Positions 2,257-52,010 of a stretch of DNA of 64,000 nucleotides are shown piece by piece. This DNA is from Prevotella sp. (lineage in GTDB: Bacteria; Bacteroidota; Bacteroidia; Bacteroidales; Bacteroidaceae): positions 248,001 to 312,000 of the forward strand of contig JAFVGZ010000003.1 of assembly GCA_017478025.1 (NCBI GenBank), given 5' to 3'. Both the position numbers and the translations under genes were made by a program. The notes under the pieces were generated by a model. That model searched no databases and had not been told where the DNA came from. It worked only from the letters and a program-made list of their open reading frames with translations. How positions within the stretch are numbered: position 1 is the stretch's first letter; each line of letters starts with the position of its first letter.

Positions 2257-2344
2257 GGTAATAGAGTAACTTTTAGAGGGTAATAGAGTAACTTTTAGGA
2301 GGTAAAAGACCTACTTTTACGGGGTAAAAGACCTGCTTTTGCAA
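2257..2344. repeat. 22-bp period array A (4 units)
   Basis: Four consecutive 22-bp units at 2257, 2279, 2301 and 2323, each beginning GGTAA. Units 1-2 carry AGAGTAACTTTTAG; units 3-4 carry GGTAAAAGACCTRCTTTT. The array lies in the gene-free stretch 2115-2488 between convergent rpmE2 and the esterase. The rest of that stretch is AT-rich with nothing else recognisable. The same core words occur in the array at 34163. Confidence 0.85.
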
Positions 2345-2488
2345 CGGCCTATAAATTAGATAGTTACAAAGGGGCAAAACGGGCTCTTTGCAACAAAGAA
2401 TAACAAAATGAGCTAAAACACCTTTAACTCATATTAACACTGAATGGTTAAAATCTGTAAACATTCAAAACTTGGAGAATGTACAGTT

Positions 2489-3346
2489 TTAACGACCAAG
2501 TGACCTTATTTTCTCAAACATCCTCTTGCCGAGCAGTTCTGCTCCGGCAGCATCGAAATGTATCTGGTCACGGCCCAAGGTTGCGTCGCTCACATCCACC
2601 ACATGGAAGTCAGGATCTTCCTTTTGCAACTGATACATAGCAGCTGTCACCTTGGGCGAGCCTTGCCTGCTGGCCTTTGAGAACGTGCCGCAGATGAATG
2701 GCAGGTGTGCATACTTCTGCTGTCCCGTCTTGTTTACCAGGTAGTTACGCACATAATCCACCACAACCTTCAGGTTATCGTGATAGCTGTCTGTCTGACT
2801 CCTGTCCCCCTCACCTTGATGCCAGAGCATGAATTTGATGTCATAACCCTCAGGCAACTTAGAGAGCTGATAGTCTATCGCGGCTCCGATATTCTCGGTA
2901 AATGCCTTCAGCAACGATAGGCCGCCCTTGTCTGATGCCGCTGTACTGTCAAGATATTCAGGATCTGCACTCCAATGCATATCGCCGTTGCTCTTGCAGC
3001 GCGGGTCTATGGAAGTATCGCCCAGGCTCTCCTTTATAACATAGAAAGGCTGCTGCCACAGGCGTTCCAACTCGTAATACACCACAGCATCGTATGCCTA
3101 GCGCTCCGGCTTCTGGCTATAGTTACGAGGTGTAAACGGCTCAAAGCGCCCTTCACCCGAATGTACGCCGCTGCCATAGCTCCACTGGCAATAGCGGTAA
3201 CCGTCACGCTTGATATACTCTGGCAGCTCAGCATTATCCACCCTGCCGTCAGTATTGCTCTGTCCAGCCACCAGCACCACAGGCACCTGAGCCTTCACAG
3301 CCAGCGCCAGAACAAAGATATATATGCTTAAAATTATTTTTCTCAT
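2489..3346 (-). pseudogene. SGNH/sialate O-acetylesterase-type carbohydrate esterase with an in-frame TAG
   Basis: Two open segments (3346-3101 and 3097-2489) lie in the same frame, separated only by TAG at 3100-3098. Joined, they make about 285 residues: signal peptide 'MRKIILSIYIFVLALAVKAQ', the first catalytic block GQSNTDGR, the mid block WHQGEGD, and the last block DQIHFDAAG with the catalytic Asp/His. This is the layout of the PF03629 (DUF303) esterase family, which removes acetyl groups from glycans. The residues after the stop, AYDAVVYYELE, continue the family fold; relatives as I recall them have Trp here, so TGG to TAG is the simplest explanation. The rest of the frame is undamaged, so this is a recent nonsense mutation, a base error, or read-through. 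Confidence 0.8.
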
Positions 3347-3369
3347 ACCCTTATATTATTTCCCACCTG

Positions 3370-3377
3370 CAAAGTTA
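3370..3377 (-). promoter_or_regulatory. -7 promoter element for the esterase
   Basis: TAACTTTG on the minus strand, 24 bases upstream of the esterase ATG. The -33 region is AT-rich but has no clear TTG at the best spacing. Confidence 0.5.
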
Positions 3378-3466
3378 CAAATAAAAATTGAAATAAAACG
3401 GAAATCCCGATTTTTTTATAAGGATAGCGTATCTCTGTGGAGAATTTGCCATTAGGCTGACAGCAT

Positions 3467-3506
3467 AAAAAATCTTCCCTCCCGTCATTGGCGAGAAGGA
3501 AGATTT
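3467..3506 (-). terminator. Terminator of the Cys-rich protein gene
   Basis: On the minus strand AAATCTTCC...GGAAGATTT forms a stem (arms about 3498-3506 and 3469-3477), with the inner TTCTCG/CGGGAG pairing mostly as well, followed by Ts. It starts 23 bases after the stop codon of the upstream gene. Confidence 0.85.
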
Positions 3507-3528
3507 GCTCTTCTTATCAACATTCAGT

Positions 3529-3831
3529 TTAGTTCTTCTTGCACTTGTCCTTGCAGGTGCAGTCTTTGCAGGTGCAGTCTTTGCAACCAGACTTGCAACA
3601 GTCCCCCTTGCACCCGCCGCAATTTTTGCAGCCGTCAGAGCAGCAGGCCTCGCCTTTCTTGTCACAGCACTTCTCATTCTTGTCGCAAGCCTTGTCTTTC
3701 TTGCACTCTCCCTGTTGCTTCTTGTCGCAGCACTCCTTCTGGGCTTTCTGGCCGTTATCTTGGGCTGTTACTGTGGTTGTTACACACGTCATCGCCATCA
3801 TCATGATGGCAACCATAATCATTTTTTTCAT
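3529..3831 (-). CDS. Small secreted Cys/Lys-rich protein, metallothionein-like
   Basis: A 100-residue protein. The ATG at 3831 gives a good signal peptide (MKKMIMVAIMMMAMTCV... to TAQ); an upstream in-frame ATG at 3894 lies upstream of the promoter -7 box and is unlikely. The mature part is about 75 residues with 19 Cys, almost all as CC, CKxC or GCxxC, alternating with Lys and Asp, and the C-terminal motif CKDCTC is repeated. This composition suggests metal (Cu, Zn, Cd) binding or a disulfide-rich envelope protein. I do not recognise a named family. It has its own promoter and terminator, so it is a single-gene unit. Confidence 0.75.
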   Translation of the reverse strand: MKKMIMVAIMMMAMTCVTTTVTAQDNGQKAQKECCDKKQQGECKKDKACDKNEKCCDKKGEACCSDGCKNCGGCKGDCCKSGCKDCTCKDCTCKDKCKKN

Positions 3832-3863
3832 TGTAAATATAGTGTTTGAGTTGAAAACTGACG

Positions 3864-3894
3864 CAAAGGTACTCCTATTTATTGAAATCCACAA
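3864..3894 (-). promoter_or_regulatory. Promoter of the Cys-rich protein gene
   Basis: Minus strand TTG at 3894-3892, then 20 bp, then TACCTTTG at 3871-3864. The start codon at 3831 is about 33 bases downstream of the -7 box. Confidence 0.75.
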
Positions 3895-4014
3895 GGTAAT
3901 TCCTATTTTTTAACAAAAACACGCATACTTTTTCGTCTGTGGCGGAATATGCACAAATCATGCGCATCAGACGGACATTTATATCGTTTCATTCTGAGTT
4001 TTTGCAGAAAACAG

Positions 4015-4045
4015 TTGTCGGAATGACAAATTATTTGTACCTTTG
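4015..4045 (+). promoter_or_regulatory. Promoter of pheT
   Basis: TTG at 4015-4017, 20 bp, then TACCTTTG at 4038-4045, 69 bases before the pheT ATG. Confidence 0.75.
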
Positions 4046-4113
4046 CGCTCGCAAATTATTAAGAGGTACGCGAAATCATAAACAAATAAACATATAAATA
4101 CTCAAAACTACTT

Positions 4114-10362: not shown

Positions 10363-10440
10363 TATATATAAGGTGAACTATTTGTCCCCAGTGGCATCTT
10401 GACCGCAAAGACAAACAGATATACACAAACAACACTTGAG

Positions 10441-10512
10441 TTAAGTTACTCAGGAGCACGACTTAAGTTACTTAGGAGCACAGCTTAAGTTACTTAGGAT
10501 AACAGTTTAAGA
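10441..10512. repeat. 22-bp period array B (3 units and a partial)
   Basis: Units at 10441, 10463 and 10485 all begin TTAAGTTACT and continue YAGGAGCACRRC or a variant; a partial unit TTAAG follows at 10507. It ends 88 bp upstream of the -7 element of the cobalamin operon. The first unit is identical over 22 bases to the first unit of the array at 33990. Confidence 0.88.
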
Positions 10513-10576: not shown

Positions 10577-10607
10577 TTGCATATTAAATAAATAATGTGT
10601 AATTTTG
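10577..10607 (+). promoter_or_regulatory. Promoter of the cobalamin uptake/late-synthesis operon
   Basis: TTG at 10577-10579, 20 bp, then TAATTTTG at 10600-10607. Transcription would begin just ahead of the cobalamin riboswitch. Confidence 0.75.
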
Positions 10608-10613
10608 CAGCCG

Positions 10614-10800
10614 CATTTCAGGTGATGCCTTTGGTTTGTGACCAAAAGGCAGAGAGGGAATCGGGTGAAAATCCCGAACAGTACCCGCTACTGTAGATGC
10701 CCTTTTTCGGAATGTGCTATAGAAAGCCACTGTCAAAAAGAGACGTTTGATGGGAAGGCGCACATTCGGGGCAAAGTCAGGAAACCTGCCTGGAAGGAAA
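10614..10800 (+). ncRNA. Cobalamin riboswitch (adenosylcobalamin-type leader)
   Basis: Conserved blocks appear in the expected order: GGTGATGCC near 10621; the AGGGAATCGGGTGAAAATCC block near 10654; CAGTACCCGCTACTGT (10679-10694), the P5/L5 hairpin; GCCACTG near 10726; TGGGAAGG near 10750; and the B12-box region AAGTCAGGAAACCTGCCTGG (10774-10793). It should bind a cobalamin and turn down expression of the operon that starts 36 bases later, through either translation or transcription control; no clear intrinsic terminator lies before the ATG, which favours masking of the start region. Confidence 0.95.
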
Positions 10801-10836
10801 AAACATAAAAGAGAATAAAGGATCTGCTACGGGATT

Positions 10837-18188: not shown

Positions 18189-18283
18189 GGAATTAAAAAT
18201 TAAGAATTCAAAATTCAAAATCAAAGTTCCACCCCGGCCCTCCCTTGTAGGAGAGGAAGAAGGGACAATAGCAACAGCATCAA

Positions 18284-18369
18284 AATTGTAAATGGTAAAT
18301 GGTCAATGGTAAATGGTCAATGGTAAAGAGTAAACAGTAAATAGTACATTGTAAATTGTAAATTGTACA
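18284..18369. repeat. Heptamer array AATKGTM leading into cbiP
   Basis: About twelve consecutive 7-bp units: AATTGTA, AATGGTA, AATGGTC, AATGGTA and so on, drifting to AATAGTA, CATTGTA, AATTGTA. The final unit gives the 'catg' that holds the cbiP start codon at 18369. Confidence 0.88.
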
Positions 18370-19847
18370 TGAAAAATGTTCTCCATCCAATCATGTTCGC
18401 GGGAACGGGTAGCAATGTTGGCAAGAGCATTGTTGCTACGGCTTTCTGTCGCATCTTCCGTCTGGATGGCTATATGCCTGCTCCTTTCAAGGCACAGAAT
18501 ATGGCCCTTAACAGTTATGCCACCCCTGACGGTCTGGAGATAGGGCGTGCTCAGGCGGTACAGGCCGAGGCTGCCGGCATCCCATGCCATACTGACATGA
18601 ACCCTCTGCTCCTAAAGCCTCAGAGCGACCATACGAGTCAGGTGGTGCTGCACGGTAAGCCCATCGGCAACCGCGATGCCTACGAATACTGGCGCCGCCC
18701 CTCCCCTTCGAGTGCTTCGCGGTTTCCCCGCGAAGACTGCCCCTCCCCCATTGACTTCCGAAAAGAAGTCTGCGATGCCTTTGACCGCCTTGCTTCATGC
18801 TATAATCCGATTGTTATGGAGGGTGCCGGCAGCATATCCGAGCTGAACCTCCGCGATACAGACCTTGTGAACCTACCGATGGCGCGGCATGCAGGGGCCG
18901 ATGTCATTCTTGTGGGCGATATAGACAGGGGCGGTGTCTTTGCCTCCGTATATGGCAGTATCATGCTGCAGACCCCTGAGGACAGGAAGTTCATCAAGGG
19001 CATCATCATCAATAAGTTTCGCGGCGACATGCGACTCTTTGACGAGGGGCGCAGCATGCTTGAGGATATCTGCGGCGTTCCTGTGCTGGGAGTCATACCT
19101 TATTATAAAGACATCTACATAGATGAAGAAGATAGCGTCAGCCTTGAGCAAAAACGCAGACAACTGGCAGAAGGAAAGGTGAATGTTGCCGTGGTTCTGT
19201 TGAGACACATCAGCAACTTTACTGACTTTGACACCCTAGAGCGTGACTCGCGCGTCAACCTCTTTTACACCAACAACACCTCAGACATCAGTCATGCAGA
19301 CATCATTATCCTGCCCGGCACGAAGCAGACTTTGGAAGACCTGTTGGAGTTGCGCCGCAATGGATGTGCCCAGGCTATCATGCGTGCCCATCGTGATGGG
19401 AAGAAGGTTGTAGGCATTTGTGGGGGCTATCAGATGTTGGGGCAGACCATCAGCGACCCTGAAGGCATAGAGGGCAATATCGCCACCCTGCCCGGGCTGG
19501 GGCTGCTGCCAATCTATACCACGATGACAAGAGAGAAGACAACGAGGCAAGTTACCTTTGATTTCAACGGTCAGGAGTGCAGGGGTTACGAGATACACCA
19601 AGGTGTAAGCGATACTGATGAAGCCATAATTCAGTCAGAAAGGTGCATCGGTACATACATTCATGGTTTCCTTGACAATCAACCGGTTATAGAACACCTG
19701 CTTAAAGACCACCTCAGTCCTTTGACCTCAGACCTCAGCCCTTTGACCTCCGACTTTAAGGACGAACAATACAATAGGCTTGCCGATCATGTTCGCCGAC
19801 ACGTTGACATGGAACGAATCTACAAAATACTGACAGACAATGATTGA
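18369..19847 (+). CDS. cbiP: Cobyric acid synthase
   Basis: 492 residues from the ATG at 18369, which itself closes a heptamer array. It amidates side chains b, d, e and g of adenosylcobyrinate diamide. ATP-binding 'MFAGTGSNVGKS' near 9-20; 'DIDRGGVFASVYG' near 180; glutaminase domain about 255-480 with 'VVGICGGYQMLGQ' holding the Cys near 350. Two segments are foreign to the family and repeat-encoded: 'RRPSPSSASRFPRED' near 112, from a GC-rich hairpin block (about 18697-18755), and two copies of LSPLTSD near 450, from a 21-bp repeat (19713-19754). The gene overlaps cobD by 8 bases. Confidence 0.94.
   Translation: MKNVLHPIMFAGTGSNVGKSIVATAFCRIFRLDGYMPAPFKAQNMALNSYATPDGLEIGRAQAVQAEAAGIPCHTDMNPLLLKPQSDHTSQVVLHGKPIGNRDAYEYWRRPSPSSASRFPREDCPSPIDFRKEVCDAFDRLASCYNPIVMEGAGSISELNLRDTDLVNLPMARHAGADVILVGDIDRGGVFASVYGSIMLQTPEDRKFIKGIIINKFRGDMRLFDEGRSMLEDICGVPVLGVIPYYKDIYIDEEDSVSLEQKRRQLAEGKVNVAVVLLRHISNFTDFDTLERDSRVNLFYTNNTSDISHADIIILPGTKQTLEDLLELRRNGCAQAIMRAHRDGKKVVGICGGYQMLGQTISDPEGIEGNIATLPGLGLLPIYTTMTREKTTRQVTFDFNGQECRGYEIHQGVSDTDEAIIQSERCIGTYIHGFLDNQPVIEHLLKDHLSPLTSDLSPLTSDFKDEQYNRLADHVRRHVDMERIYKILTDND
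19713..19754 (+). repeat. 21-bp tandem repeat inside cbiP (2 copies)
   Basis: Two 21-bp copies beginning CTCAG at 19713 and 19734 encode LSPLTSD twice; 21 = 3 x 7, so the reading frame is kept. The insertion is just before the last helical part of the protein. Confidence 0.85.
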
Positions 19848-20937
19848 GGGACACGGCGACGACGCATATAAATATAAAGACATCAGGAGCGACTTCTCCT
19901 CTAATATCTGCGCTCACGGCAGTCATCATGGCCTGCTGAACCATCTTGCGGCCCATCCTGAGCTGATAGACCATTATCCTGAGCCTGAGGCGTGGTCGTT
20001 GGAAAAGATGTTGGCAGCAAAACATGACATAGACCCCAGGCAGGTCATCGTGACAAGCGGCGCGACAGAGGCCATTTACCTCATAGCCCAGACGTTTCGC
20101 CTGAATGCCATAATCCCAGAACCGACATTTAGCGAATATGCCGAAGCCTGTATGATGTACAATTTACCATGTACAATGTACAATTTTCGTGACGGAAAGC
20201 AAACAAACGCTCACCCCTCGTCCCTCATCCCTGCCACCGTGTCCTGCGGTTCTTTGCTAAGCAAAGCGTCACAAGTGCCGAGCGCTCCGCAGGGTCTACT
20301 ATGGCTCTGCAACCCTAATAACCCAACGGGCGAGGTCTATGACAGACGCAACATAGAAAGGATGATCGCAGAGCACGAGATTGTGGTAATAGACCAGAGC
20401 TACGCTAACTATACAGATGCTTCTGTGATGTCACCGCAAGAGGGGTGCATGGCGCAGAATGTCATTCAGATTCACTCCATAACAAAAGACTACGGCGTAC
20501 CTGGTCTGAGGCTTGGGTATATCACGGCTCATGACAGGCTGACCGAGCAGATTCGTCAGTACATGCGTCCATGGAGTGTCTCGGCATTGGCTATAGAGGC
20601 AGGCAAGTATCTGTTGCAGCATGACGAGCTGATATGCCGCCCTGACTTGCAGGAGGCGCAACGCCTTCGCGAGAAACTTAATCAGATAAAGGGCATAGAG
20701 GTTATGCCTACAAAGACCAACTTTATGCTTTGCAGGCTGGAGCATCATACAGCAGCAGAACTGAAGGAATACCTTGCATGTGAACATCACATTCTCATCC
20801 GCGACGCCTCGAATTTCAAAGGCCTTACTCCTCACCATTTCCGCGTAGCCTCTCAGACAGCAGAAGAAAATGATGCCCTGGTCAGAGCGATAGAGGGCTT
20901 TATGGATGAAGGAGGATGGATGAGGGTTTATGGATGA
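19840..20937 (+). CDS. cobD: Threonine-phosphate decarboxylase-like PLP aminotransferase
   Basis: 365 residues. It is a fold-type I PLP enzyme related to HisC; in cobalamin clusters it makes (R)-1-amino-2-propanol phosphate from threonine phosphate. Signatures: 'DFSSNI' near 18, 'TSGATEAIYLI' near 71, 'LCNPNNPTGEV' near 150, and the PLP-lysine in 'HSITKDYGVPGLRLGY'. Residues about 107-147 ('MYNLPCTMYNF' to 'PSAPQ') are additional to the fold and come from repeats: TACAATT/TACAATG heptamers and a 51-bp hairpin element. The last residues (GFMDEGGWMRVYG) come from a 14-bp array. Activity therefore depends on this loop being tolerated. It overlaps cbiP by 8 bases and lies 86 bases ahead of the likely cbiB start. 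Confidence 0.88.
   Translation: MIEGHGDDAYKYKDIRSDFSSNICAHGSHHGLLNHLAAHPELIDHYPEPEAWSLEKMLAAKHDIDPRQVIVTSGATEAIYLIAQTFRLNAIIPEPTFSEYAEACMMYNLPCTMYNFRDGKQTNAHPSSLIPATVSCGSLLSKASQVPSAPQGLLWLCNPNNPTGEVYDRRNIERMIAEHEIVVIDQSYANYTDASVMSPQEGCMAQNVIQIHSITKDYGVPGLRLGYITAHDRLTEQIRQYMRPWSVSALAIEAGKYLLQHDELICRPDLQEAQRLREKLNQIKGIEVMPTKTNFMLCRLEHHTAAELKEYLACEHHILIRDASNFKGLTPHHFRVASQTAEENDALVRAIEGFMDEGGWMRVYG
20243..20293. repeat. 51-bp hairpin element, copy 1 (inside cobD)
   Basis: Begins CCTGCGG and ends CCGCAGG (inverted ends) with an internal TTTGCTAAGCAAA near-palindrome. It differs at one base from 46874-46924; similarity extends a few bases outward (GCCACCGTG upstream). At 51 bp (17 codons) it keeps the cobD frame. 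Confidence 0.9.
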
Positions 20938-20957
20938 GGGAGGAGGGATGAGTGTTT
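20902..20957 (+). repeat. 14-bp tandem array at the cobD 3' end
   Basis: Four 14-bp units, ATGGATGAAGGAGG and variants, at 20902, 20916, 20930 and 20944. The first two and part of the third encode the C-terminus of CobD. Confidence 0.85.
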
Positions 20958-20966
20958 GCTACAATA

Positions 20967-21036
20967 AATGTTCAATGTTCAATGGTCAATCCTCAATGTT
21001 CAATGGTCAATGTTCAATGGTCAATGGTAAATATTA
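20967..21036 (+). repeat. Heptamer array AATGKTC upstream of and into cbiB
   Basis: Ten 7-bp units from AATGTTC (20967) to AATATTA (21030). The probable cbiB start ATG (21024) is within the ninth unit. Confidence 0.88.
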
Positions 21037-25520: not shown

Positions 25521-25521
25521 A

Positions 25522-25570
25522 AATTGTACATTGTACATGGCAAATAGTACATTGTACATGGTAAATTGTA
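25522..25570 (+). repeat. Heptamer array between btuF and btuC
   Basis: Seven 7-bp units, AATTGTA, CATTGTA, CATGGCA, AATAGTA and so on, filling the whole btuF-btuC spacer. The btuC ATG at 25574 follows directly in a partial unit (CATATGA). Confidence 0.88.
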
Positions 25571-25573
25571 CAT

Positions 25574-26620: not shown

Positions 26621-27343
26621 CTATAATATTTCCATAATCTCGCGCAATGTCGTAACGGTGTGGGTGGGGATTGGTGTCGGCTCTATGTGCCAACGATTGA
26701 AGAGTATGGTGTCGAGGCCTGCATTGTGTGCACCGATGATGTCGGTCTGTAGGTTGTCACCTATCATTATGGTCGTTTGGGTGTTGGCTCCTGATGCGTT
26801 GAGAGCGTAGTTGAAAAACTCCTTTGACGGTTTGTTGGCTCCGGCATCCTCGCTGAGGATAATGGTGTCAAAGTAGCTGCGCAGGCCGCAAGATGCGAGT
26901 TTCTTGTACTGCACTTCGTGGAAACCGTTGCTGCACATGTGCATCCTGTAGCCCTTGCCGCGTAGGTAGTCCATCAGTTCGTGAGCACCATCCACTACCC
27001 CTGGCTGACTTGAGCAGGCATCCAGGAACATATCGTTTATCTGCATGCAGTATTCTATGAACGAGGAGGCTGATTCCTCATGCTGCGCTCTCAGCTCGTC
27101 ACTCATGCAGAGGGGTCGGCGGAAGCGCTCCAAAATCAGATGTGGGCGGTCTATCTCTCCTTTGGCATAGCGGCCCCAGAGGTCTATGTTGGCAGTCCAA
27201 TAGGCATCGTAAAACACCTGAGGGTCAGGGAAGTAACGCCCCAGTCTGAATGCCTCAAAGGTTTCACGCAAGGCAATGACGGCATTACCGTAAGTGTCAT
27301 AGAGCGTATCGTCAAAATCTATGAACAAATCTTTATATTTCAT
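26621..27343 (-). CDS. HAD-superfamily hydrolase, YjjG-like
   Basis: 240 residues from the ATG at 27343; an in-frame ATG at 27361 gives six more residues. HAD motifs: 'FIDFDDTLYDT' (nucleophile Asp) near the N-terminus, 'MCSNGF' (motif II), 'NKPSKEFF' with the motif III Lys, 'MIGDNLQTDIIGA' (motif IV). The long helical cap fits the YjjG/HAD-IA nucleotidase group. It overlaps the 3' end of the cbiJ-cbiD gene by 11 bases, so it is last in the corrin ring operon; a phosphatase there might act on alpha-ribazole phosphate in place of CobC, but that is inference. Confidence 0.85.
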   Translation of the reverse strand: MKYKDLFIDFDDTLYDTYGNAVIALRETFEAFRLGRYFPDPQVFYDAYWTANIDLWGRYAKGEIDRPHLILERFRRPLCMSDELRAQHEESASSFIEYCMQINDMFLDACSSQPGVVDGAHELMDYLRGKGYRMHMCSNGFHEVQYKKLASCGLRSYFDTIILSEDAGANKPSKEFFNYALNASGANTQTTIMIGDNLQTDIIGAHNAGLDTILFNRWHIEPTPIPTHTVTTLREIMEIL

Positions 27344-29138
27344 ATATCGTTCCGTTGTCATCAATGAGTAATATGGTCAGTCTCCCGTTTTCTAACAATG
27401 GGACGCAATAGTCATAGCAATGTGCAATGACTACTCTGGAGAAGGGAGACAGTTTCTCTGCGGGCAGCCTTTCCCATAGTTCGCGTGCCAAAGTGATGTC
27501 ATCGATGTTGATGTGACAGTCAGCCTCATCAAGCATTTCGGCGATAAACACTTTGTCCATCACAGTCTTGCGATTGTGGGTGTCAAGATGGCCCTGTGCA
27601 AGCTTCACCGCCTTGCCGAGCATCACCCCAAGCGTCACATTCTTGATGTTCAGCTCATTGGCTATCTTGAGCGTCTCGCCGATATAGTTGCCATATTGCA
27701 CAAAGGCCTGAGACGGCAGGTCTGGATAAAGGGCTTTCAGATATCGCTCACTCTTAAATCCGCTGTTGATTACCACTCGGTCTGTTCCGCTTGCCTTAGC
27801 CACCTCCATACACTTTCTGATGGAGTGGATAAACGCCTGCTCGCTGAAAGGCTTCACGATGCCCGACACGCCAATGATAGATATCCCTCCCTCTATGCCA
27901 AGACGCAGATTGAACGTCCTGCGAGCTATCTCCTCTCCATCGGGCACGCTGATAGTAATCCTCACATCTGCCTTTATGTTAGCGCGAAGCATCTCGCGAG
28001 GTGCCTTGTTGATGGCCGCCTCCCCGGGAGGAAAGTCAAATCCCGGCAAGGTAAAGGTACCTACACCCGTGCCGCCAATTATCTGAAATGTGTCTGATGG
28101 TTCTACTGATGCCCTTATCTCTATACCGTTAGTGACATCGGGGTCATCGCCGGCATCCTTTGTGACTGAGGCGTAGTCCGCTCCGTATGCTACTGCCACA
28201 TGTATCGTCTCGCCGTCTGGCAAGAGCACAGGCACCTCGCTGGGTGTTCTCCCCTCAATGAGGCGAATGGTAGCAGCAATGGCAGCGGCTGTGGCACATG
28301 TGCCGGTGGTGAGGCCGCTGTGAAGAGGATAGAACTCAGGCAGCAACTTTTCTACAGCCCTGCGAAGACCATAGGGACCATTGACCGTTGAACATTCTTG
28401 CTCCGTTATACTACGCAAGCGTCCCATAGGGCCGAGCGGAACATTGAACATTGAACATTGACCATTAACCGTTACACCCCCACCCTCGTATATCGTCTCT
28501 GTGGGGCGCTTGATGGCAATGATGCGCATTCCTTTCTTCCTTGCCGCTTCGGTCTTTTCGGTAAAGCCTCCGGAAAGACCACTCTCTTTTAGCAGTATCG
28601 CCTCCGCATCGGGCATGTCATTATCCTCATAAAAGCACAGTTGCTCGTCTGTGGCTCCCTGCTGATGTGCCAGCAGGATGCTGCTTTCCCTGTTCAGTAT
28701 TCTGTATGTCACCTTCACCCCTTCCTTCTCCAGCCATTTCAGCTTTTCGATGCTCTGCACTCCGGTAGTGGCAAGCAGCGAATGTAGATCTGTAGGAACG
28801 TGGGCGTAGTCATCAATCCATGTGATGTCTTTATCCCTTGGAGGGTAGATACGCTCATAGCGAATGACGGGCACTTGCAGCGCGGCACACACGGTGGCGA
28901 TAGTGTGATGCAGCTGCACAGCAAACGGATGAGCGGCATCAATGACAAGCCTTATCCCGTGCTCCAGACAAAACGCCCTCATCGCCTCACGGTCCAGGGC
29001 ACCGCTGATGACCGTGCCGTGATGCAGCTTTATGTCCTGCTCACCTGTCTTTGTGCTGTAGAAGTATGGTGTCCCCGCCTCTTCCAGCACTTCGGCAGCC
29101 TTGCGACCCTCTGTCGTTCCTCCGAATACAAGAATCAT
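27333..29138 (-). CDS. cbiJ-cbiD: Cobalt-precorrin-6A reductase - cobalt-precorrin-5B C1-methyltransferase fusion
   Basis: 601 residues. CbiJ part about 1-225: 'MILVFGGTTEGRKAAEVLEE', 'VIDAAHPFA', 'RYERIYPPRD', 'LLKESGLSGGFTEK'. CbiD part about 265-601: 'HSGLTTGTCATAAAIAA', 'DPDVTNGIEI', 'GIEGGISIIGVSGIVKPFS', 'GYMLG'-like 'LGVMLGKAVKLAQGHLDTH'. The linker (about 226-262) is repeat-encoded: heptamers GAACATT/GACCATT/GACCGTT on the plus strand give 'VNGQCSMFNVPLGP' and 'CSTVNGPYGL'. CbiD methylates C1 and CbiJ reduces the macrocycle in the anaerobic pathway. It overlaps its neighbours by 4 and 11 bases. Confidence 0.95.
   Translation of the reverse strand: MILVFGGTTEGRKAAEVLEEAGTPYFYSTKTGEQDIKLHHGTVISGALDREAMRAFCLEHGIRLVIDAAHPFAVQLHHTIATVCAALQVPVIRYERIYPPRDKDITWIDDYAHVPTDLHSLLATTGVQSIEKLKWLEKEGVKVTYRILNRESSILLAHQQGATDEQLCFYEDNDMPDAEAILLKESGLSGGFTEKTEAARKKGMRIIAIKRPTETIYEGGGVTVNGQCSMFNVPLGPMGRLRSITEQECSTVNGPYGLRRAVEKLLPEFYPLHSGLTTGTCATAAAIAATIRLIEGRTPSEVPVLLPDGETIHVAVAYGADYASVTKDAGDDPDVTNGIEIRASVEPSDTFQIIGGTGVGTFTLPGFDFPPGEAAINKAPREMLRANIKADVRITISVPDGEEIARRTFNLRLGIEGGISIIGVSGIVKPFSEQAFIHSIRKCMEVAKASGTDRVVINSGFKSERYLKALYPDLPSQAFVQYGNYIGETLKIANELNIKNVTLGVMLGKAVKLAQGHLDTHNRKTVMDKVFIAEMLDEADCHINIDDITLARELWERLPAEKLSPFSRVVIAHCYDYCVPLLENGRLTILLIDDNGTIYEI
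28376..28476 (-). repeat. Heptamer repeats in the cbiJ-cbiD linker
   Basis: On the plus strand GACCATT, GACCGTT, GAACATT near 28377-28397, and GAACATT x3, GACCATT, AACCGTT near 28438-28473, separated by a GC-richer stretch containing CCCATAGGG and CCATAGGG words. The block encodes the inter-domain linker. Confidence 0.75.
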
Positions 29139-32239: not shown

Positions 32240-32285
32240 CATTAAAAATTCTGCATTCTGAATTATGAATTCTGCATTATTAATT
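32240..32285. repeat. Heptamer array TGCATTA/TGAATTC between cbiH-C and cbiE-T
   Basis: Units TGCATTA, AAAATTC, TGCATTC, TGAATTA, TGAATTC, TGCATTA, TTAATTC run directly up to the cbiH-C stop. Related units occur at 41690-41745. Confidence 0.8.
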
Positions 32286-33716
32286 CTACACGTCTCTCCC
32301 CGGTTTCAGTTGCTCTGCATCATCAAAGGTCAGGATCGCATTACACAGCGTGGCTGCGAGATTGCTGCCGCCCTTGCGTCCCTCAACGATAATCTTGGGA
32401 ATATCCCTGAATGGCTTCACCATGTGCTTGGACTCCCTGACATGAACAAATCCCACAGGCGCGGCAATGATACCGGCAGGCCGGGCCTTGCCCTTGCGAA
32501 TCAGGGCACACAGCTCCATCAGCGCCGTAGGGGCATTGCCAAAGGCAAACAGGGCATCAGGATGTTCCTCTACAGCCAAACGTATGCCTGCCTGAGTGCG
32601 GGTGATGCCCTCTGATGCTGCCATCTCTGCCACACGGGGATCTGCGAGATAGCACTTCGCCTCTACGCCCAGCCGCGCAAGGGCTCCCTTGCGAATGCCG
32701 CTCGTCACCATCGTCACATCGGTCACAATGGTACGCAGGGTTCCTTCGCGTACCTTGTTATATAGTGTCTCTACAGCTCCCGGGTCGGTATAGAGAATGC
32801 TCTCCATGTCAAAGTCGGCAGTAGTATGAATGGCATGCAGCAATGCCCACTTATGATCCAGGGGATAGTCCTTTCTGCTAAGCTCACCTTCAATGGTGCG
32901 GAACGATTCTATCATGATGTTCTGCCCCACTTTGTCAGCCTCGCCCGTCCTGTCACGATAGTACCCTCGCGGCGTGATGAATGTCGGGCTGCATCCCTCA
33001 GCGGAGCCAGAGGCGGGCTGCCATATATACGACTGTGAGTTGCCTATTAGGATGACCGTGAACATATCCACATCCTCTGGGTCAAACTCGGCAAGCGTCG
33101 TCACTTTCACCTCCTGGTCCTCCCGCCCTGCCTGGCGCACATAGCCCACAGGCGTCTCGCCCTTTGCGTGGCTGAGGAACAGTTCCTGCAAACGGTACAG
33201 TTGCCAATAGCGCCCATGCGACTTGGGGTTGTAGATGGCCGTCACGAAGTCGCCCATTATTGCCGCCTTGATTCTGCGCTCTATCACCTCCCAGGGGGTC
33301 ATAAGGTCAGAGAGGGAGATTATGCAGATGTCGTGACCTATGGGAGCACCAAGCAAAGACGCAGCCTTTTGGAAAGCAGAGATGCCTGGCAGGGAAACAA
33401 CCTCGACATCAGACTTGCGCTCGGCTCTCATCTCATAGACCAATGGCGCCATACCGAATATCCCCGCGTCGCCACTTGAGATAACAACAACCGTCTTGCC
33501 CGCTTCGGCCAGAAGAAAAGCCAGCTCTGCACGCTCACTCTCCTTCTTCATTCCTGTATCTACACACTCGCAACCCTCCTTCATGAAGGGCTCCACAAAT
33601 TGGAAATAATACTTATATCCCACGACAACATCTGCCTGCTGAACAGCCTCCAGCACAGCAGGCGTGATATCCTCCTTACCTCCGGGACCTATACCCGCCA
33701 CGATGATTTTTCCCAT
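32286..33716 (-). CDS. cbiH-cbiC: Cobalt-precorrin-3 C17-methyltransferase - cobalt-precorrin-8 methylmutase fusion
   Basis: 476 residues. CbiH part about 1-245: 'VAGIGPGGKEDITPAVLEA', 'VVISSGDAGIFGMAPLVYE', 'VVSLPGISAFQKAASLLG', 'TAIYNPKSHGR'. CbiC part about 258-476: 'HAIHTTADFDM' with the catalytic His near 307, 'IVTDVTMVTSGI', 'FAFGNAPTALMELC', 'GIIAAPVGFVHVRESK'. CbiH contracts the ring and methylates C17; CbiC moves the C11 methyl to C12. This is the first gene of the corrin ring operon, with a -7 promoter box 56 bases upstream; no riboswitch is visible ahead of it. Confidence 0.95.
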   Translation of the reverse strand: MGKIIVAGIGPGGKEDITPAVLEAVQQADVVVGYKYYFQFVEPFMKEGCECVDTGMKKESERAELAFLLAEAGKTVVVISSGDAGIFGMAPLVYEMRAERKSDVEVVSLPGISAFQKAASLLGAPIGHDICIISLSDLMTPWEVIERRIKAAIMGDFVTAIYNPKSHGRYWQLYRLQELFLSHAKGETPVGYVRQAGREDQEVKVTTLAEFDPEDVDMFTVILIGNSQSYIWQPASGSAEGCSPTFITPRGYYRDRTGEADKVGQNIMIESFRTIEGELSRKDYPLDHKWALLHAIHTTADFDMESILYTDPGAVETLYNKVREGTLRTIVTDVTMVTSGIRKGALARLGVEAKCYLADPRVAEMAASEGITRTQAGIRLAVEEHPDALFAFGNAPTALMELCALIRKGKARPAGIIAAPVGFVHVRESKHMVKPFRDIPKIIVEGRKGGSNLAATLCNAILTFDDAEQLKPGRDV

Positions 33717-33779: not shown

Positions 33780-33989
33780 CAAAAAAAAACTGAGACTAAA
33801 GAAAACTTGGAAAAAAAACTAAACTCACAATACCTTTTGTCCAACTGCTATTCCAATATTTTTCTTTATATTTCCGTTGAAAATAATGCATTCATAACTC
33901 TGATAGCGTGTTATGATACAAAGAACTGTGACTATGCTGCATGAAAACAATCTCAGTTCATCGTTACTCGCGTTTTACTTCGCTATAAG

Positions 33990-34066
33990 TTAAGTTACTC
34001 AGGAGCACGACTTAAGTTACTCAGGAACACAACGGAAGTTACTCAGGAGCACGACTTAAGTTAATA
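33990..34066. repeat. 22-bp period array C (3 units and a partial)
   Basis: Units at 33990, 34012 and 34034 share RAAGTTACTCAGGARCACRAC; a partial TTAAGTTA follows at 34056. It lies 210 bp upstream of the cbiH-C -7 box, in the gene-free stretch 33717-34303. Unit 1 equals unit 1 of the array at 10441. Confidence 0.88.
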
Positions 34067-34162
34067 ACGTGCAACAAAAAAAAGTGACGTGTACACACAT
34101 CGCCTACTAATCAATTTTTATATTCTTTACTATGACAAAATGGCAGTAGAACTATTGCGTTC

Positions 34163-34250
34163 TAATAGCAGGTCTTTTACCGCCTAATAGTAGGTCTTTT
34201 ACCCGGTAATAGCAGGTCTTTTACCGCCTAAAAGACCTACTATTACAACG
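34163..34250. repeat. 22-bp period array D (4 units)
   Basis: Units at 34163, 34185 and 34207 read TAATAGYAGGTCTTTTACC plus three bases; the fourth (34229) is an inverted version, TAAAAGACCTACTATTA. Same words as array A at 2257-2344, in the opposite orientation. It ends 54 bases after the nitrilase 3' end in transcription order. Confidence 0.88.
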
Positions 34251-34303
34251 CTCTGATTATCAGTTTGTTTGGGACTGTCATTTTGGCAGATACATGCTAA
34301 GGG

Positions 34304-35125
34304 TCAGTCTGCGTCTTGGAGGACGGGGAATTTCTTTCGGAAGGCGCGAAGCTTCTCCATGTCAAGGTGACAGGAGATGATATCCTGAGTGTTGTCACGA
34401 GCCTGGATGACAGTTCTGCCATAGGCGTCGATGACTGCGGTGCCACCATCGTAATGGCAGACGGGATCATCACCCACACGGTTGACGCCAATGACATAGC
34501 ACTGGTTCTCTATGGCACGGGCGCGCAACAGTACATCCCAGACGCTGCGACGCGACGCAGGCCAGTTGGCAACGTACAATAAACAGTCATATGGGATGAA
34601 GGATGAAGGAGGAGGGGTGAAGGATGAGGGAGGAGGGGTGAAGGATGAGGGAGGAGGGGTGAGGGATGACACGGGAACATTGCGACTGAAGCAGGGGAAG
34701 CGCAGGTCGTAGCATATCTGAAGACAGAACCTTACCCCACCCCACTCTACGATGGTTCGCTCATTGCCTGGGGTGTAGCAACGGTTCTCGCCGCCGTAAG
34801 TAAAGAGATGGCGCTTGTCATAATGAGCAACGCTACCGTCGGGCTTGACAAAGTAGAGGCGGTTGTAGTAGTTCCCCCCCTCACGGACCGCTACGCTACC
34901 GGCTATGGCAGCATCGAGCTTTACAGACATCTTCTTCATCCACGTCAGCGCATCGTCAACAGATGACACCACACCCTCTGGCTTCATCAGGAAGCCTGTG
35001 GTGAACATCTCTGGCAATACATAGACATCCGACTGCGGAGCAGACAACAGGGCCTCTTCACTCATGGTGAGGTTGGCGTTGGTGTCTGCCCACACAAGCG
35101 GTATCTGAAGGAGAGTTATTTTCAT
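34304..35125 (-). CDS. Carbon-nitrogen hydrolase, omega-amidase-like (YafV/Nit2 type)
   Basis: 273 residues. Nitrilase triad: Glu in 'LPEMFTTGF' near 41, Lys in 'YDKRHLFTYGG' near 108, Cys in 'CLQICYDLRFP' near 141. The length and 'LPEMFTTGF' fit the E. coli YafV group, omega-amidases that hydrolyse 2-oxoglutaramate or 2-oxosuccinamate left by glutamine/asparagine transaminases. The aminotransferase gene directly upstream overlaps by 4 bases, which supports that pairing. Residues about 150-175 are a foreign insert of repeated PPPSSFT units encoded by a 21-bp array; it lies shortly after the catalytic Cys loop. Confidence 0.9.
   Translation of the reverse strand: MKITLLQIPLVWADTNANLTMSEEALLSAPQSDVYVLPEMFTTGFLMKPEGVVSSVDDALTWMKKMSVKLDAAIAGSVAVREGGNYYNRLYFVKPDGSVAHYDKRHLFTYGGENRCYTPGNERTIVEWGGVRFCLQICYDLRFPCFSRNVPVSSLTPPPSSFTPPPSSFTPPPSSFIPYDCLLYVANWPASRRSVWDVLLRARAIENQCYVIGVNRVGDDPVCHYDGGTAVIDAYGRTVIQARDNTQDIISCHLDMEKLRAFRKKFPVLQDAD
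34601..34663 (-). repeat. 21-bp tandem array inside the nitrilase gene
   Basis: Three 21-bp units at 34601, 34622 and 34643 (each GGATGARGGAGGAGGGGTGA plus one base) and a degenerate prefix from about 34594. It encodes PPPSSFT-type heptapeptides in frame. Confidence 0.9.
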
Positions 35126-41637: not shown

Positions 41638-41684
41638 AACATTATGTTTTTTTGATTTCAGGAGTTAAACAGTTAAGACATTAT

Positions 41685-41745
41685 GCATTATGCATTCTTA
41701 ATTCTTAATTCCTAATTCTGCATTATGCATTCTTAATTCTGCATT
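41685..41745. repeat. Heptamer array TGCATTA/TTAATTC
   Basis: Consecutive 7-bp units TGCATTA, TGCATTC, TTAATTC, TTAATTC, CTAATTC, TGCATTA, TGCATTC, TTAATTC, TGCATTA, running to the paaK stop codon at 41744-41746. Same unit family as 32240-32285. Confidence 0.85.
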
Positions 41746-43081
41746 ATTTATACACCGTTCTCTTATCGACCACTCTGACGGCCTTACCCTCGCTGACGGG
41801 CAATGTTCCCTTTGGCACCAGCTTCACGTGAGGTGTGAGGAGAATCTCGTCCTTCAGGGCGCGCTTCACATCTTTCTGAAGCTGTATGAGGCGCTGATAA
41901 TCATCAGTAAACAGGTCTTCCAACTCTACCTCTACGGTCATGTTATCATTATCCTCATCGGTTGTGAGGGTTATGAGATAGTTGCTTGCCAGCTCTTTGA
42001 ACTGCATCAGTATCTTCTCAATCTGAATCGGGAAGATGTTAACGCCTCTCAATACCATCATATCGTCAGAACGTCCCTTCATTCTGTCTATCCTTACGTG
42101 GTTACGGCCACATGGGCAGCCGCGTCCCAATACACGCGTAAGGTCACGCGTACGGTAGCGCAGAAGCGGCATCGCCTCACGCTTGATGGATGTAAGTATC
42201 AGCTCGCCTATCTCACCGTCAGGAACTGGCTCTAAGGTCTCAGGGTCAACGATTTCCACGATATAATAGTCCTCCCAGAAGTGGAGGCCGTTCTGCTCCT
42301 TACACTCAAAGCCGACACCAGGGCCGCACATCTCAGACATACCGAAAGAGTTGTAGGCCTTAACGCCAAGCATATTCTGTATGCGCTGACGCTGCTCCTC
42401 TGAGTGAGGCTCAGCACCGATGGCAAGCACCTTCAGCTTCGTATCCTTGCGAGGATCAACGCCCTGCTCTTGCATCACCTCATAAAGACGGGTGACGTAA
42501 GACGGTACAGCATGTACGGCTGTGGTACCGAAGTCCTTCATGAACTTTATCTGACGGAGCGAGTTGCCCGCAGCTGCCGGAACGGTAAGCATTCCCAGAC
42601 GCTCGGCACCATACTGGAATCCGAGACCTCCGGTAAACATACCATAACCTGAGGAGTTCTGGAATACGTCATTGGGGCGCAGCCCTACCATCCAGAGGTT
42701 ACGTGCAACCTGATTGGCCCATTCGTCCAGATCGTTCTGTGTGTGAAGTATCACAGTCGGGTTGCCCGTAGTACCTGAAGAGCTGTGCAAACGAACACAT
42801 TCCTCCAGGGGAGCGCTGGCCAATCCGAACGGATAGTTGTTGCGCAGGTCTTCCTTGGTTGTGAACGGAATGCGGCGAATGTCGCTGACACTTGTTATAT
42901 TGTCAGCAGATACGCCTGCCTCCTCAAGTCTTTTCCTATATACAGGATTATTCATACAGCGTGAAACGGTCTCTCTCAGACGCTCCACTTGAAGTTTCTC
43001 TATCTCTTCCCGAGACATCGTCTCCAATTCCGGGTCCAGATACTCTGAACTCCAGTCAGGTAATTCTCTTCTGTATGCCAT
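41744..43081 (-). CDS. paaK: Phenylacetate--CoA ligase family protein (PaaK-like, second copy)
   Basis: 445 residues from the ATG at 43081 (MAYRRELPDWSSEYL); an earlier in-frame ATG at 43105 would overlap iorB by 20 bases. Same motif set as the other copy: 'PFTTKEDLRNNYPFG', 'SSSGTTGNPTVILHT', 'SGYGMFTGGLGFQYGA', 'NSFGMSEMCGPGVGFEC', 'RTRDLTRVLGRGCPCGRN', 'GRSDDMMVLRGVNIFPIQIE'. The N-terminal extension and the phosphate-loop differences show an old paralogue rather than a recent duplicate. Being next to iorB/iorA, it likely makes the arylacetyl-CoA that IorAB uses or forms. Confidence 0.92.
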   Translation of the reverse strand: MAYRRELPDWSSEYLDPELETMSREEIEKLQVERLRETVSRCMNNPVYRKRLEEAGVSADNITSVSDIRRIPFTTKEDLRNNYPFGLASAPLEECVRLHSSSGTTGNPTVILHTQNDLDEWANQVARNLWMVGLRPNDVFQNSSGYGMFTGGLGFQYGAERLGMLTVPAAAGNSLRQIKFMKDFGTTAVHAVPSYVTRLYEVMQEQGVDPRKDTKLKVLAIGAEPHSEEQRQRIQNMLGVKAYNSFGMSEMCGPGVGFECKEQNGLHFWEDYYIVEIVDPETLEPVPDGEIGELILTSIKREAMPLLRYRTRDLTRVLGRGCPCGRNHVRIDRMKGRSDDMMVLRGVNIFPIQIEKILMQFKELASNYLITLTTDEDNDNMTVEVELEDLFTDDYQRLIQLQKDVKRALKDEILLTPHVKLVPKGTLPVSEGKAVRVVDKRTVYK

Positions 43082-46992: not shown

Positions 46993-46993
46993 T

Positions 46994-48796: not shown

Positions 48797-48819
48797 TTGT
48801 TAAACTGTTATTTTGCGTG

Positions 48820-48850: not shown

Positions 48851-48889
48851 AGAAAATACAAACTTTTTTGAGCAAAACCAATAGGATTT

Positions 48890-49678
48890 TTAGCTTATGG
48901 ACACAAAACAAAAGACAATCAGCGTCAACACTATGACAATGGGAACGATTATACACTCCCTGAAATTCTCTTTTCGGGGGATATTGAAAGGGCATTTTTC
49001 GCTGCCGTTTTTCTCTCTTTCTGCAGAGGCATACGACTCAGAAACAGAGGCATACAGCTTACCGTCTGAGGCATACGGCTCGGAAACAGAGGCATACAGC
49101 TTACCGTCTGAGGCATACGACTTGTTGACCGGTGCATATATGCGATGTCCGTAGCGCTGTTGCAGCCTTATAGCCGCCCAAGCTACTATTGCAGCAAGAA
49201 CAAAGCCGCCCAATATGTCGCCGGGATAGTGAAAGCCAAGATAAACGCGGGAGTAACATACTAATAGAGCCACAAGCGGCATAGTTATCATTATCAGCCT
49301 GTTACGCAACCAATAGCATATCACGAATGTCAATAGCCAGATATTAGCAGAATGTGCAGACGGGAAACCGCACCCTGCGCCTCTTCTGTCATTCACTATA
49401 TGAACCATCGATGAAATGGGGTTTTCTGGGTTGCTGGGACGCAGTCGGCCTATCCAGGGACGCAGCAAATGGGCGTTCCCCCAATCGGTGATGAGCATAC
49501 CGCAGCCTATCATCAGCAATACTACCGCCAACACCTTCCACGAATAGTTGCGCAAGATGACGTAAATTACTGACAGATAAAAAGGTATCCACACCGTCTT
49601 CTGACTGATGCAATACATCATGGAATCCCAGAAGGCGGTGTGGTTTGAGTTTATCAGAAAGAACAGTTGTTCGTCCAT
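48890..49678 (-). CDS. PAP2-family phosphatase with a repeat-derived C-terminal insert
   Basis: 262 residues, inner membrane. Phosphatase motifs: 'RPWIGRLRPSNPE' near 73, 'CGFPSAHSANIW' near 103 and 'YSRVYLGFHYPGDILGG' near 142 with the nucleophile His and partner Asp; about six membrane helices. It may dephosphorylate undecaprenyl or lipid phosphates. Residues about 184-217 are a repeat, YASDGKL/YASVSEP in alternation, encoded by a 42-bp tandem unit, lying between the last core helix and a C-terminal hydrophobic segment ('CIIVPIVIVLTLIVFCFV'). The start-codon region is duplicated (21-bp repeat); only the downstream copy has ATG. Confidence 0.88.
   Translation of the reverse strand: MDEQLFFLINSNHTAFWDSMMYCISQKTVWIPFYLSVIYVILRNYSWKVLAVVLLMIGCGMLITDWGNAHLLRPWIGRLRPSNPENPISSMVHIVNDRRGAGCGFPSAHSANIWLLTFVICYWLRNRLIMITMPLVALLVCYSRVYLGFHYPGDILGGFVLAAIVAWAAIRLQQRYGHRIYAPVNKSYASDGKLYASVSEPYASDGKLYASVSESYASAEREKNGSEKCPFNIPRKENFRECIIVPIVIVLTLIVFCFVSIS
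49026..49124 (-). repeat. 42-bp (2 x 21) tandem repeat inside the PAP2 gene
   Basis: Units of 42 bp at 49026-49067 and 49068-49109, then 15 bases of a third. Each is two related 21-bp halves starting GAGGCATACG or GAGGCATACA on the plus strand. The period keeps the frame and adds 7-residue repeats. Confidence 0.9.
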
Positions 49679-49701: not shown

Positions 49702-49708
49702 AGAATTA

Positions 49709-51031: not shown

Positions 51032-51100
51032 GATTTTGATTTAGTTTTTATAATTAAATTTTGTTCGCTTGCCTTTTTACGGTTGCTCGGTTTCAAGCTG

Positions 51101-51108
51101 CAAAGTTA
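51101..51108 (-). promoter_or_regulatory. -7 promoter element of nhaD
   Basis: Minus strand TAACTTTG, with TTTG about 21 bp upstream at around 51133-51130. The nhaD ATG is 70 bases downstream. Confidence 0.65.
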
Positions 51109-51307
51109 CAAAAAAAAATCCATTCCCACAAACCCTACGGAAAAAGACAAAAACAAAGCTAAAGATTTTAACACGTTTTGACAATTCGCACCACCCTATA
51201 TGATGTGATAAACGGCAAGATAGTGATTTGGGGAACTTTTACAAGCCGACTCACATCATCCCAACGCGGCATTACGGCAGAATGTGAAATTATCAACAAA
51301 AACAGAT

Positions 51308-51439
51308 GAAAAGTAAACAATATCCGTACGAAGTCTACGTTCTTAGGAAAAGAGTCAACCCTTCCAGTGAAAGTAGTCAACTGATCTCAGACGAGACAGT
51401 CAACCAAATCCGTACGGGTAGGCAAATGTTAAAGAAAAA
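51308..51439. repeat. 22-bp period array F (degenerate, 6 units)
   Basis: Six 22-bp steps from 51308 to 51439 keep AGTMAAC-like words in register (AAGTAAAC, AAGTCTAC, GAGTCAAC, TAGTCAAC, CAGTCAAC, TAGGCAAA), and another AGTCAACC sits at 51451 shifted by about half a unit. It lies in the gene-free stretch 51032-51800. Bases 51140-51307 hold nothing recognisable. Confidence 0.65.
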
Positions 51440-51484
51440 GGCCTAAAAAGAGTCAACCGTATTCAGGAAAAGACACATATCGTC

Positions 51485-51649
51485 TGTTGCAGCGTTGCAG
51501 CGTTGCAGTGTTGCAGTTCCAAAATAGGTTCTGCAAAAAGTCAAAAAGTAGCTCTATATTTATATATATTAATATATATATAAATATAGAATTTTTCTTA
51601 GGGTTAGGGAATACCTTTTCGAGAACTGCAACACTGCAACACTGCAACA
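51485..51649. repeat. Large hairpin element built of GTTGCAGY octamers around an AT palindrome
   Basis: Left arm 51485-51519 has four octamers GTTGCAGC/GTTGCAGT; right arm 51623-51649 has three complementary ACTGCAAC octamers, so at least 27 bases pair almost perfectly. Between them, 51554-51589 is a nearly perfect 36-base AT palindrome (CTATATTTATATATATTA...). The element lies in the middle of the nhaD-rhaB spacer, read by no gene. Confidence 0.85.
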
Positions 51650-51797
51650 GAGTGTGTACTCTGAAAAGAGAGGGCATAGTCAAGCCTGCTTGAACTTTTG
51701 CCGAGCACCAATCGATGCCAGCCAGCGCTGCAACACATCAGAGAAAAATTTTTCAAAAAAGTTGCACAAGTATTCGTAAACCGCAATGGGATTGTCG

Positions 51798-51911
51798 TAA
51801 CTTTGCAGCATGAAAAATGAGACCTCCTCCTGCACAAGACATCTACCGCGCCACCTCCGGCTCCTCCGGCGAAAAAAGAAGAAAAGTAGGCCGACACAAG
51901 GAGATAAGTAA
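51798..51911 (+). other. Possible leaderless small ORF with a promoter-like box
   Basis: TAACTTTG at 51798-51805 is followed four bases later by an ATG (51810) opening a 33-codon frame to 51911. The product is strongly basic ('RHLRLLRRKKKKSRPTQ') and ends inside the 22-bp array E. There is no good -33 box. Whether it is a gene, a leader peptide or chance is open. Confidence 0.25.
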
Positions 51912-52010
51912 CTTAACGCTGGGAGATGAGTAACTTAACGCTGGGAGATAAGTAACTTAACGCTGGGAGATGAGTAATTTTAATCAAAGAGATGAGTAAC
52001 TTAAACTTAG
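51901..52010. repeat. 22-bp period array E (5 units)
   Basis: Five units at 51901, 51923, 51945, 51967 and 51989, each GAGATRAGTAA followed by CTTAACGCTGG in the first three and drifting in the last two. The AGTAACTTAA core is the complement of TTAAGTTACT in arrays B and C. It ends 97 bp before the rhaB -7 box. Confidence 0.9.

Follow-up and report, generated by a model that had tools for sequence, protein, structure and literature searches.

Intergenic arrays with a fixed 22-bp step in a Prevotella genome and their dispersed cassettes

Plasmid iterons consist of several direct repeats, each roughly 17-22 bp long, to which an oligomeric protein binds, and REP/RAYT elements are dispersed intergenic repeats. 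The direct repeats of LytTR systems are about 9 bp long. These repeats are described as lying mostly 12 bp apart and, in a minority of cases, 11 or 13 bp (PMC6193735). The closest known kind of element to the arrays analyzed here is the BrickBuilt minisatellite-MITE of Porphyromonas. As described for Porphyromonas gingivalis, it comprises a 23-nt minisatellite within a MITE with a leader and a tail, is present in 19 copies, and shows 0-6% indels within elements (PMC4596501). The Prevotella intermedia/nigrescens group carries PINSR, a 188-bp repeat without terminal inverted repeats, which demonstrates that individual Prevotella clades have amplified intergenic repeats of their own and for which use as a species marker has been proposed (PMC4755523).

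The window analyzed here is a stretch of 64,000 nucleotides (C1:248001-312000) of a draft Prevotella genome (G000; 2.93 Mb, 43 contigs, 85% complete). Its arrays, built on the cores AGTAACTT and AAAAGACCT, are clade-specific intergenic minisatellites, many of which lie within cassettes that are constant in length and whose ends are conserved. Their features are summarized in Table 1.

Table 1. Arrays, cassettes and array-free gaps distinguished in the window
Positions	Strand	Feature	Context
2200..2475	+	Dispersed cassette enclosing the 2257 array	277-bp match, 81%, to own-genome locus L035
2257..2346	+	Mosaic array, two AGTAACTT-type units followed by two of AAAAGACCT type	Single 22-bp register
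10429..10511	-	AGTAACTT array, three exact units	Upstream of cobalamin riboswitch and TonB-dependent receptor gene
27343..27361	.	Array-free gap	Matching sister-species gap has four-unit AAAAGACCT array
33978..34063	-	AGTAACTT array, three exact units and one variant	
34141..34289	-	Cassette enclosing the 34157 array	~90% identity to L039 and L043 cassettes; 86% to L052
34157..34238	-	AAAAGACCT array, three exact units	Inverted unit at one end
51353..51457	+	AGTCAAC copies	Reported array rejected (steps 22, 23, 53)
51900..52007	+	AGTAACTT array, five units	Upstream of FGGY sugar kinase gene
60426..60942	.	Gap without AGTAACTT array	Matching sister-species gap has ten-unit AGTAACTT array

Over-representation of the 22-bp step

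Within the window, Tandem Repeats Finder assigned a period of 22 to the segments 2257-2331, 10441-10511, 33990-34063, 34162-34231 and 51900-51977. A blind lag scan also gave five arrays at lag 22, against none in any of 20 first-order Markov shuffles. No arrays were scored at lags 17-20, 23, 25-27 and 29; lags 21 (four arrays), 24 (one) and 28 (three) scored as well, those at lags 21 and 28 coinciding with 7-bp-unit arrays from Tandem Repeats Finder. The first-pass annotation had listed six arrays with an exact 22-bp period, five of which were recovered by both methods. The sixth, at 51308, had been taken for a diverged relative, but its AGTCAAC copies (51353, 51375, 51398 and 51451) follow one another at irregular steps that rule this out, and no further AGTCAAC pairs at 22 or 44 bp were present in the own (632 kb) and sister-species (352 kb) sequence searched.

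For pairs spaced 22 bp, the whole host genome gave 68 exact matches with AGTAACTT and, when up to two mismatches were tolerated, 116 with AAAAGACCT; the reversed-pattern control was 0 in each case. A blind scan of 464 kb of this genome (the window plus 20 stretches from two contigs) revealed 24 arrays at lag 22, one at lag 23 and none at lags 19, 20, 25 and 26, as well as 17 at lag 21 and 10 at lag 24, counts that include short-unit arrays. When such arrays, recognized by also scoring at lags 5-10, were set aside from a genus sample of 1.377 Mb, 44 arrays remained at lag 22 versus six at lag 21, four at lag 24 and no more than three at every other lag from 11 to 40. Prior to this exclusion the scores were 44 for lag 22, 34 for lag 14, 29 for lag 21, and 19 each for lags 28 and 35. 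The own genome contributed 24 of the 44, and relatives the other 20, in 913 kb; the relatives alone, with short-unit arrays included, gave 20 arrays at lag 22, 12 at lag 21 and five at lag 24. A period of 22 is thus over-represented among tandem periods (44 arrays in 1.377 Mb against at most six), as the first-pass annotation had anticipated. The enrichment in intergenic DNA for which it had proposed a test was also observed: by crude gene calling all 24 own arrays lie outside called genes, which make up 87% of that sequence, and 43 of the 44 in the genus sample are intergenic.

The sequences of the arrays are clade-specific. The AAAAGACCT pattern occurs in two of 398 sampled congeners, namely the own genome and G196 (UBA2718 by matching coordinates), and the AGTAACTT pattern in none of a further 59 relatives, which include 35 congeners. 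Allowing one mismatch yielded a single AAAAGACCT match in each of two relatives, and the reversed control likewise gave a single match in each of two others. In a scan of species-representative genomes, from which records close to the window's own genome may be missing, the AAAAGACCT pattern was found in 34 stretches, 33 of Prevotellaceae bacterium UBA2718 (the sister species) and one of another uncultured Prevotellaceae genome. Pairs of AGTAACTT numbered 39 in UBA2718 and 0 in a third species. The search of viral_contigs gave no AAAAGACCT matches and seven stretches with a triple AGTAACTT at 22 bp, all with different spacers and one of them (L280) carrying phage head and packaging genes. Because controls returned one to four (other 8-mers at 22 bp, 3 and 2; the AGTAACTT core re-spaced to 21 and 23 bp, 4 and 1), these stretches were treated as background, though seven is the highest count, and viral carriage of the arrays was rejected.

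Lag-22 arrays with other units were identified in congeners, which were sampled as stretches, mostly contig starts and some very short: 13 in 180 kb of G026, four in 80 kb of G028, and single ones in G024 (160 kb; inside a called 117-aa ORF), G006 and G015, with none in 100 kb of G016. The sequence of G024, G026 and G028 was extended after arrays had been seen there, so these densities are biased while the period is not. The unit of the G026 family, TTATACA-N4-TGTATAA, was located at 68 places on each strand in G026, at 28 in G003 and at none in the other 58 genomes; two 20-kb stretches of G003 contained no lag-22 array. In 20 stretches (273 kb) from other families of the order, no lag-22 arrays were scored at the standard threshold, one appeared in G058 at a looser threshold, and two lag-23 arrays were found, both in G053. 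The 22-bp step with different repeat sequences in several sampled relatives suggests that something reads the spacing.

Unit structure and common register

Distances of up to 110 bp between AGTAACTT cores are exclusively 22, 44, 66, 88 and 110 bp, and those between AAAAGACCT cores 22, 44, 66 and 88 bp, across 632 kb from the own genome and 352 kb from the sister species. The 22-bp steps number 55 (own) and 40 (sister) for AGTAACTT, and 32 and 73 for AAAAGACCT, one sister step per core being a duplicate because the sister loci partly overlap. When one mismatch was allowed, neighbours 15-30 bp away stood at 22 bp in 60/63 own and 41/43 sister cases for AGTAACTT, and in 35/35 and 77/77 for AAAAGACCT. 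Three of the four 20-bp steps reflect an inverted unit closing a cassette, and the fourth, at L261 of the sister species, is a true exception; a single 30-bp step lies away from any array. Copies of AGTAACTT outside arrays amount to 28 of 116 in the own sequence, with about 19 expected by chance for an 8-mer.

Each AGTAACTT unit has a fixed core preceded by a purine, and over 138 units the information content at positions +8 to +19 is 0.06-0.70 bits, so that the spacer is nearly free in sequence and fixed in length. The AAAAGACCT arrays have most of their unit positions fixed. As had been noted at first pass, units vary within an array while the spacing does not: spacers drift and the 22-bp step is kept. 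Spacers are similar within one array and are also common to different loci.

The two cores had been regarded as separate families. Within arrays, the offset from AGTAACTT to AAAAGACCT is 17 modulo 22 in 24/26 own and 8/11 sister cases, and in the orthologous array L174/L242 the same slot holds a AAAAGACCT-type unit in the sister species and a AGTAACTT-type unit in the own genome. This common register and the interchangeable slots, together with the mosaic composition of the 2257 array, rule out independent families; both unit types belong to one system, in which units are exchanged in register.

A spacer free in sequence and fixed in length is the pattern expected from phased DNA binding. We therefore tentatively favour, as a quite possible explanation drawn from sequence patterns, non-autonomous cassettes whose 22-bp lattice is kept by selection for phased binding by a putative protein. 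An oligomeric sequence-specific DNA-binding protein would occupy successive units, about two helical turns apart, and selection would keep the step through its binding; array length would change by gain or loss of whole units. The specificity of such a protein may differ between clades, each of which would thus have its own unit sequences. Its candidate roles include DNA organisation, silencing and cassette mobility. The earlier proposal of a protein on one face of the helix fits the fixed spacing and the drifting spacers, but with B-DNA at 10.5 bp per turn, 22 bp is about 2.1 turns, so "one face" holds approximately. Palindromic units were detected at p<0.05 in 13 of 44 arrays, AGTAACTT units being mostly non-palindromic, which excludes a palindromic unit as a general rule; since some units are palindromic and others are not, a single binding mode for all does not follow. 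A broader, rather unlikely version would have a genus-wide, sequence-independent 22-bp rule with fast-changing clade-specific units, in which co-evolving array-binding proteins organise intergenic DNA in the manner of eukaryotic satellite DNA and its binding proteins.

Dispersed cassettes and the sister species

Many arrays sit inside dispersed elements with sharp ends, and these cassettes look like non-autonomous mobile DNA. For one of them, 13 genome matches to the left part were obtained; eight clean-ended copies measure 407-409 bp, and five further copies had no clean ends under the search used. The ends of this ~408-bp class are conserved and lack clear inverted repeats. Terminal inverted repeats were distinguished in another class, the 216-bp cassette (three own and two sister loci), which has 13-bp inverted ends of GAAAAATAGGACA type and relatives of 218 and 250 bp; eight loci were examined in this survey, and L193 gave no end pair at the settings applied. 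Some cassettes end in an inverted unit, the 34141-34289 shell recurs, as judged by eye, at L163 of the third species, and little flank is common to the G026 arrays. No target-site duplication of 5-9 bp was present at the eight clean-ended copies, and flanks at empty sites are too diverged to fix exact insertion points. An end-motif scan of 632 kb of own sequence revealed no obvious autonomous parent sharing the cassette ends. The notion of a spreading repeat, also raised at first pass, is supported by the dispersal of the cassettes and by their differences between the sister species, and an enzyme would presumably move them.

Three copies of one cassette have a common upstream stretch with what we take, from its motif, to be a promoter-like sequence. 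This feature, the palindromic units of some arrays and the inverted unit closing some cassettes would suit transcribed arrays that act as RNA, as strings of small hairpins. We consider this very unlikely: AGTAACTT units are mostly non-palindromic, hairpins would tolerate indels in the spacers, and no match to a known RNA family in Rfam was found at eight array loci.

The sister species shares 70-93% identity with the own sequence in alignments longer than 500 bp. Placement in the other species was possible for 20 of 50 own and 21 of 51 sister arrays, some of these being paralogous-cassette matches and one sister locus being listed twice. Four placed arrays (one own, three sister) face a matching gap without an array. 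In seven orthologous AAAAGACCT-type arrays, hand-picked for clean alignment, 61 of 643 columns differ and there are no indels; in their 90-bp flanks, 265 of 1184 columns differ and there are 11 indels. This low array divergence could stem from copying between loci instead of selection. Orthologous AGTAACTT arrays keep their slowly changing cores while the spacers have changed, at two loci in all units together; at L239/L262, for example, the spacers of every unit differ. The same gap, upstream of the sugar kinase gene, is occupied in both species by a AGTAACTT array of five units; the two arrays are inverted relative to each other and differ in their spacers. The L243/L252 pair shows hardly any difference between the species in either array or flanks, which may reflect recent exchange.

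The main rival to the protein-read lattice is a selfish or neutral satellite copied unit by unit, that is, MITE-like cassettes that have their 22-bp unit by descent, whose units are copied whole by slippage, unequal exchange or conversion between arrays, and which have no host reader. Sharp-ended dispersed cassettes of constant length, arrays present in one sister species and missing from the other, spacers alike within an array and common to loci, whole-array spacer replacement and restriction to a clade all agree with it. Copying alone leaves unexplained why a length of 22 bp recurs among unrelated units of several congeners and why diverged spacers lack indels, and we regard it as possible, if somewhat doubtful.

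Gene context, candidate partners and described elements

Of 48 arrays, tandem gaps contain 25, convergent gaps 11 and divergent gaps 12. These gap types account for 65, 20 and 15% of intergenic bases, so the arrays are somewhat enriched in divergent gaps and do not avoid convergent ones. The AGTAACTT arrays face 26 genes, and the 24 scanned have mixed functions, which speaks against a regulon of one gene class. Array position is not kept across the genus: in 23 loci of relatives, lag-22 arrays were found at 0/17 sugar-kinase loci and at 1/6 precorrin-gene loci, near the locus edge. Because gap types and facing genes are mixed and position is not kept in relatives, the gene contexts point neither to promoters nor to a regulon. 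The sole Rfam match at the gathering threshold in the window is the cobalamin riboswitch; with none at the eight array loci, a known RNA family at the arrays was dismissed.

Operator arrays of a LytTR-type regulator would consist of ~9-bp direct repeats with 12-13 bp between them, a geometry that AGTAACTT reproduces when the purine before it is counted in, with 13 bp between copies. LytTR matches number three in the own genome, one in G026, with its many arrays, and also one in the array-poor G016, so gene counts do not track the arrays. Moreover, AAAAGACCT and palindromic units are unlike direct-repeat operators, and arrays occur in convergent gaps too, which makes this partner most improbable. 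REP-like elements moved by a Y1 (RAYT-type) transposase would be intergenic, dispersed and partly palindromic, as are the arrays, and the lack of 5-9 bp target-site duplications at the eight clean copies agrees with them. No Y1_Tnp match was found, however, in the own genome (85% complete) or in G026, G024 and G003 (99% each), all array-bearing, yet three are present in G016, which has no arrays in 100 kb; we judge such a partner extremely unlikely.

If a protein reads the step, the arrays would represent a little-known DNA-organising or regulatory layer in the large Prevotellaceae genus; if there is no reader, they would be a clean natural case of unit length kept by copying alone. As they are clade-specific, the arrays could serve as species markers.

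Several described systems resemble the arrays in part. Unlike plasmid iterons, they are spread over the chromosome, and no replication gene was found next to those examined. In the LytTR description, direct repeats are also short, with spacing better conserved than sequence, but they are pairs just upstream of a promoter, whereas here 3-10 units occur, in convergent gaps too (PMC6193735). REP/RAYT elements differ in that several array-bearing genomes have no Y1 transposase, and CRISPR-type arrays combine identical repeats with unique spacers, whereas here the spacers of an array resemble one another and recur at different loci. PINSR is likewise a clade-specific, highly amplified intergenic Prevotella repeat of unknown function, but it is 188 bp long, and section 3.4 of its report describes no 22-bp array (PMC4755523). 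Several unit families at one fixed step were not found in the accounts given of BrickBuilt and PINSR (PMC4596501, PMC4755523) or in the open-licence papers searched, among which BrickBuilt was the one similar element.

The first-pass statement that no Bacteroidota element of this kind had been described has to be withdrawn in view of BrickBuilt and its 23-nt units. According to its description, BrickBuilt is also an intergenic tandem array with a unit of about two helical turns and both conserved and free unit positions, is flanked by a leader and a tail, is dispersed in many copies, some of them lacking leader or tail, and has no known autonomous partner (PMC4596501). The arrays share its intergenic placement (own 24/24, genus sample 43/44, crude gene calls), and BrickBuilt-like inverted-repeat flank ends occur in the 216-bp cassette (13 bp), and are not clear in the ~408-bp cassette, while the G026 arrays have little flank in common. 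The differences lie in the step (23 nt versus 22), in indels (0-6% within BrickBuilt elements, nearly absent here), and in number: BrickBuilt is described as one unit family in 19 copies, whereas here several families at one step form well over 50 arrays (PMC4596501).

A near-identical locus in two species

One array, together with about 250 bp of flanking DNA, is nearly identical across the sister species (L243, 4150-4400, versus L252, 4020-4270), in contrast to the genomes of Prevotella sp. and Prevotellaceae bacterium UBA2718, which differ by more than 10%. This near-identity may reflect a recent exchange between the two species.

Other repeats and elements

A second class of short tandem repeats in the window is built of 7-bp units, with periods of 7, 14, 21 and 28; some congeners (e.g. 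G009) hold similar arrays. An array of 8-bp units ends near the window end, and a 42-bp repeat is probably coding. A TonB-dependent receptor gene lies downstream of the cobalamin riboswitch. A further intergenic element, which contains palindromes, is dispersed.

Coordinates of repeats and other features
Feature	Location	Details
7-bp-unit arrays	window 18283-18371; 20885-21032; 25521-25573; 31976-32037; 32241-32287; 34593-34669; 41679-41747	
8-bp-unit array	window 63726-63983	TATCGGCA, ~32 copies
42-bp repeat	window 49024-49122	21-bp half-repeats; within ORF 48890-49678
Cobalamin riboswitch	window 10603-10807	Rfam RF00174, 88.5 bits
Palindromic element	L043 15540-15930; L242 4000-4300; L054 16290-16400	GCCCTGAAAGGGC / CAGGGCGCTGCCCTGG
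23-bp arrays	G053, L110 8227-8303 and 9626-9762	core TCACAAKYTTGTCARTTT

Arrays in viral contigs and in another family

Arrays with a 22-bp step that contain AGTAACTT and other spacers were observed in five viral contigs (L281, L283, L284, L285 and L286), where they resemble iterons in appearance. Control patterns gave similar, though lower, counts in viral contigs. Genome G053, which carries 23-bp arrays, belongs to another family of the same order; their unit length is that of BrickBuilt, the minisatellite-MITE of Porphyromonas gingivalis.
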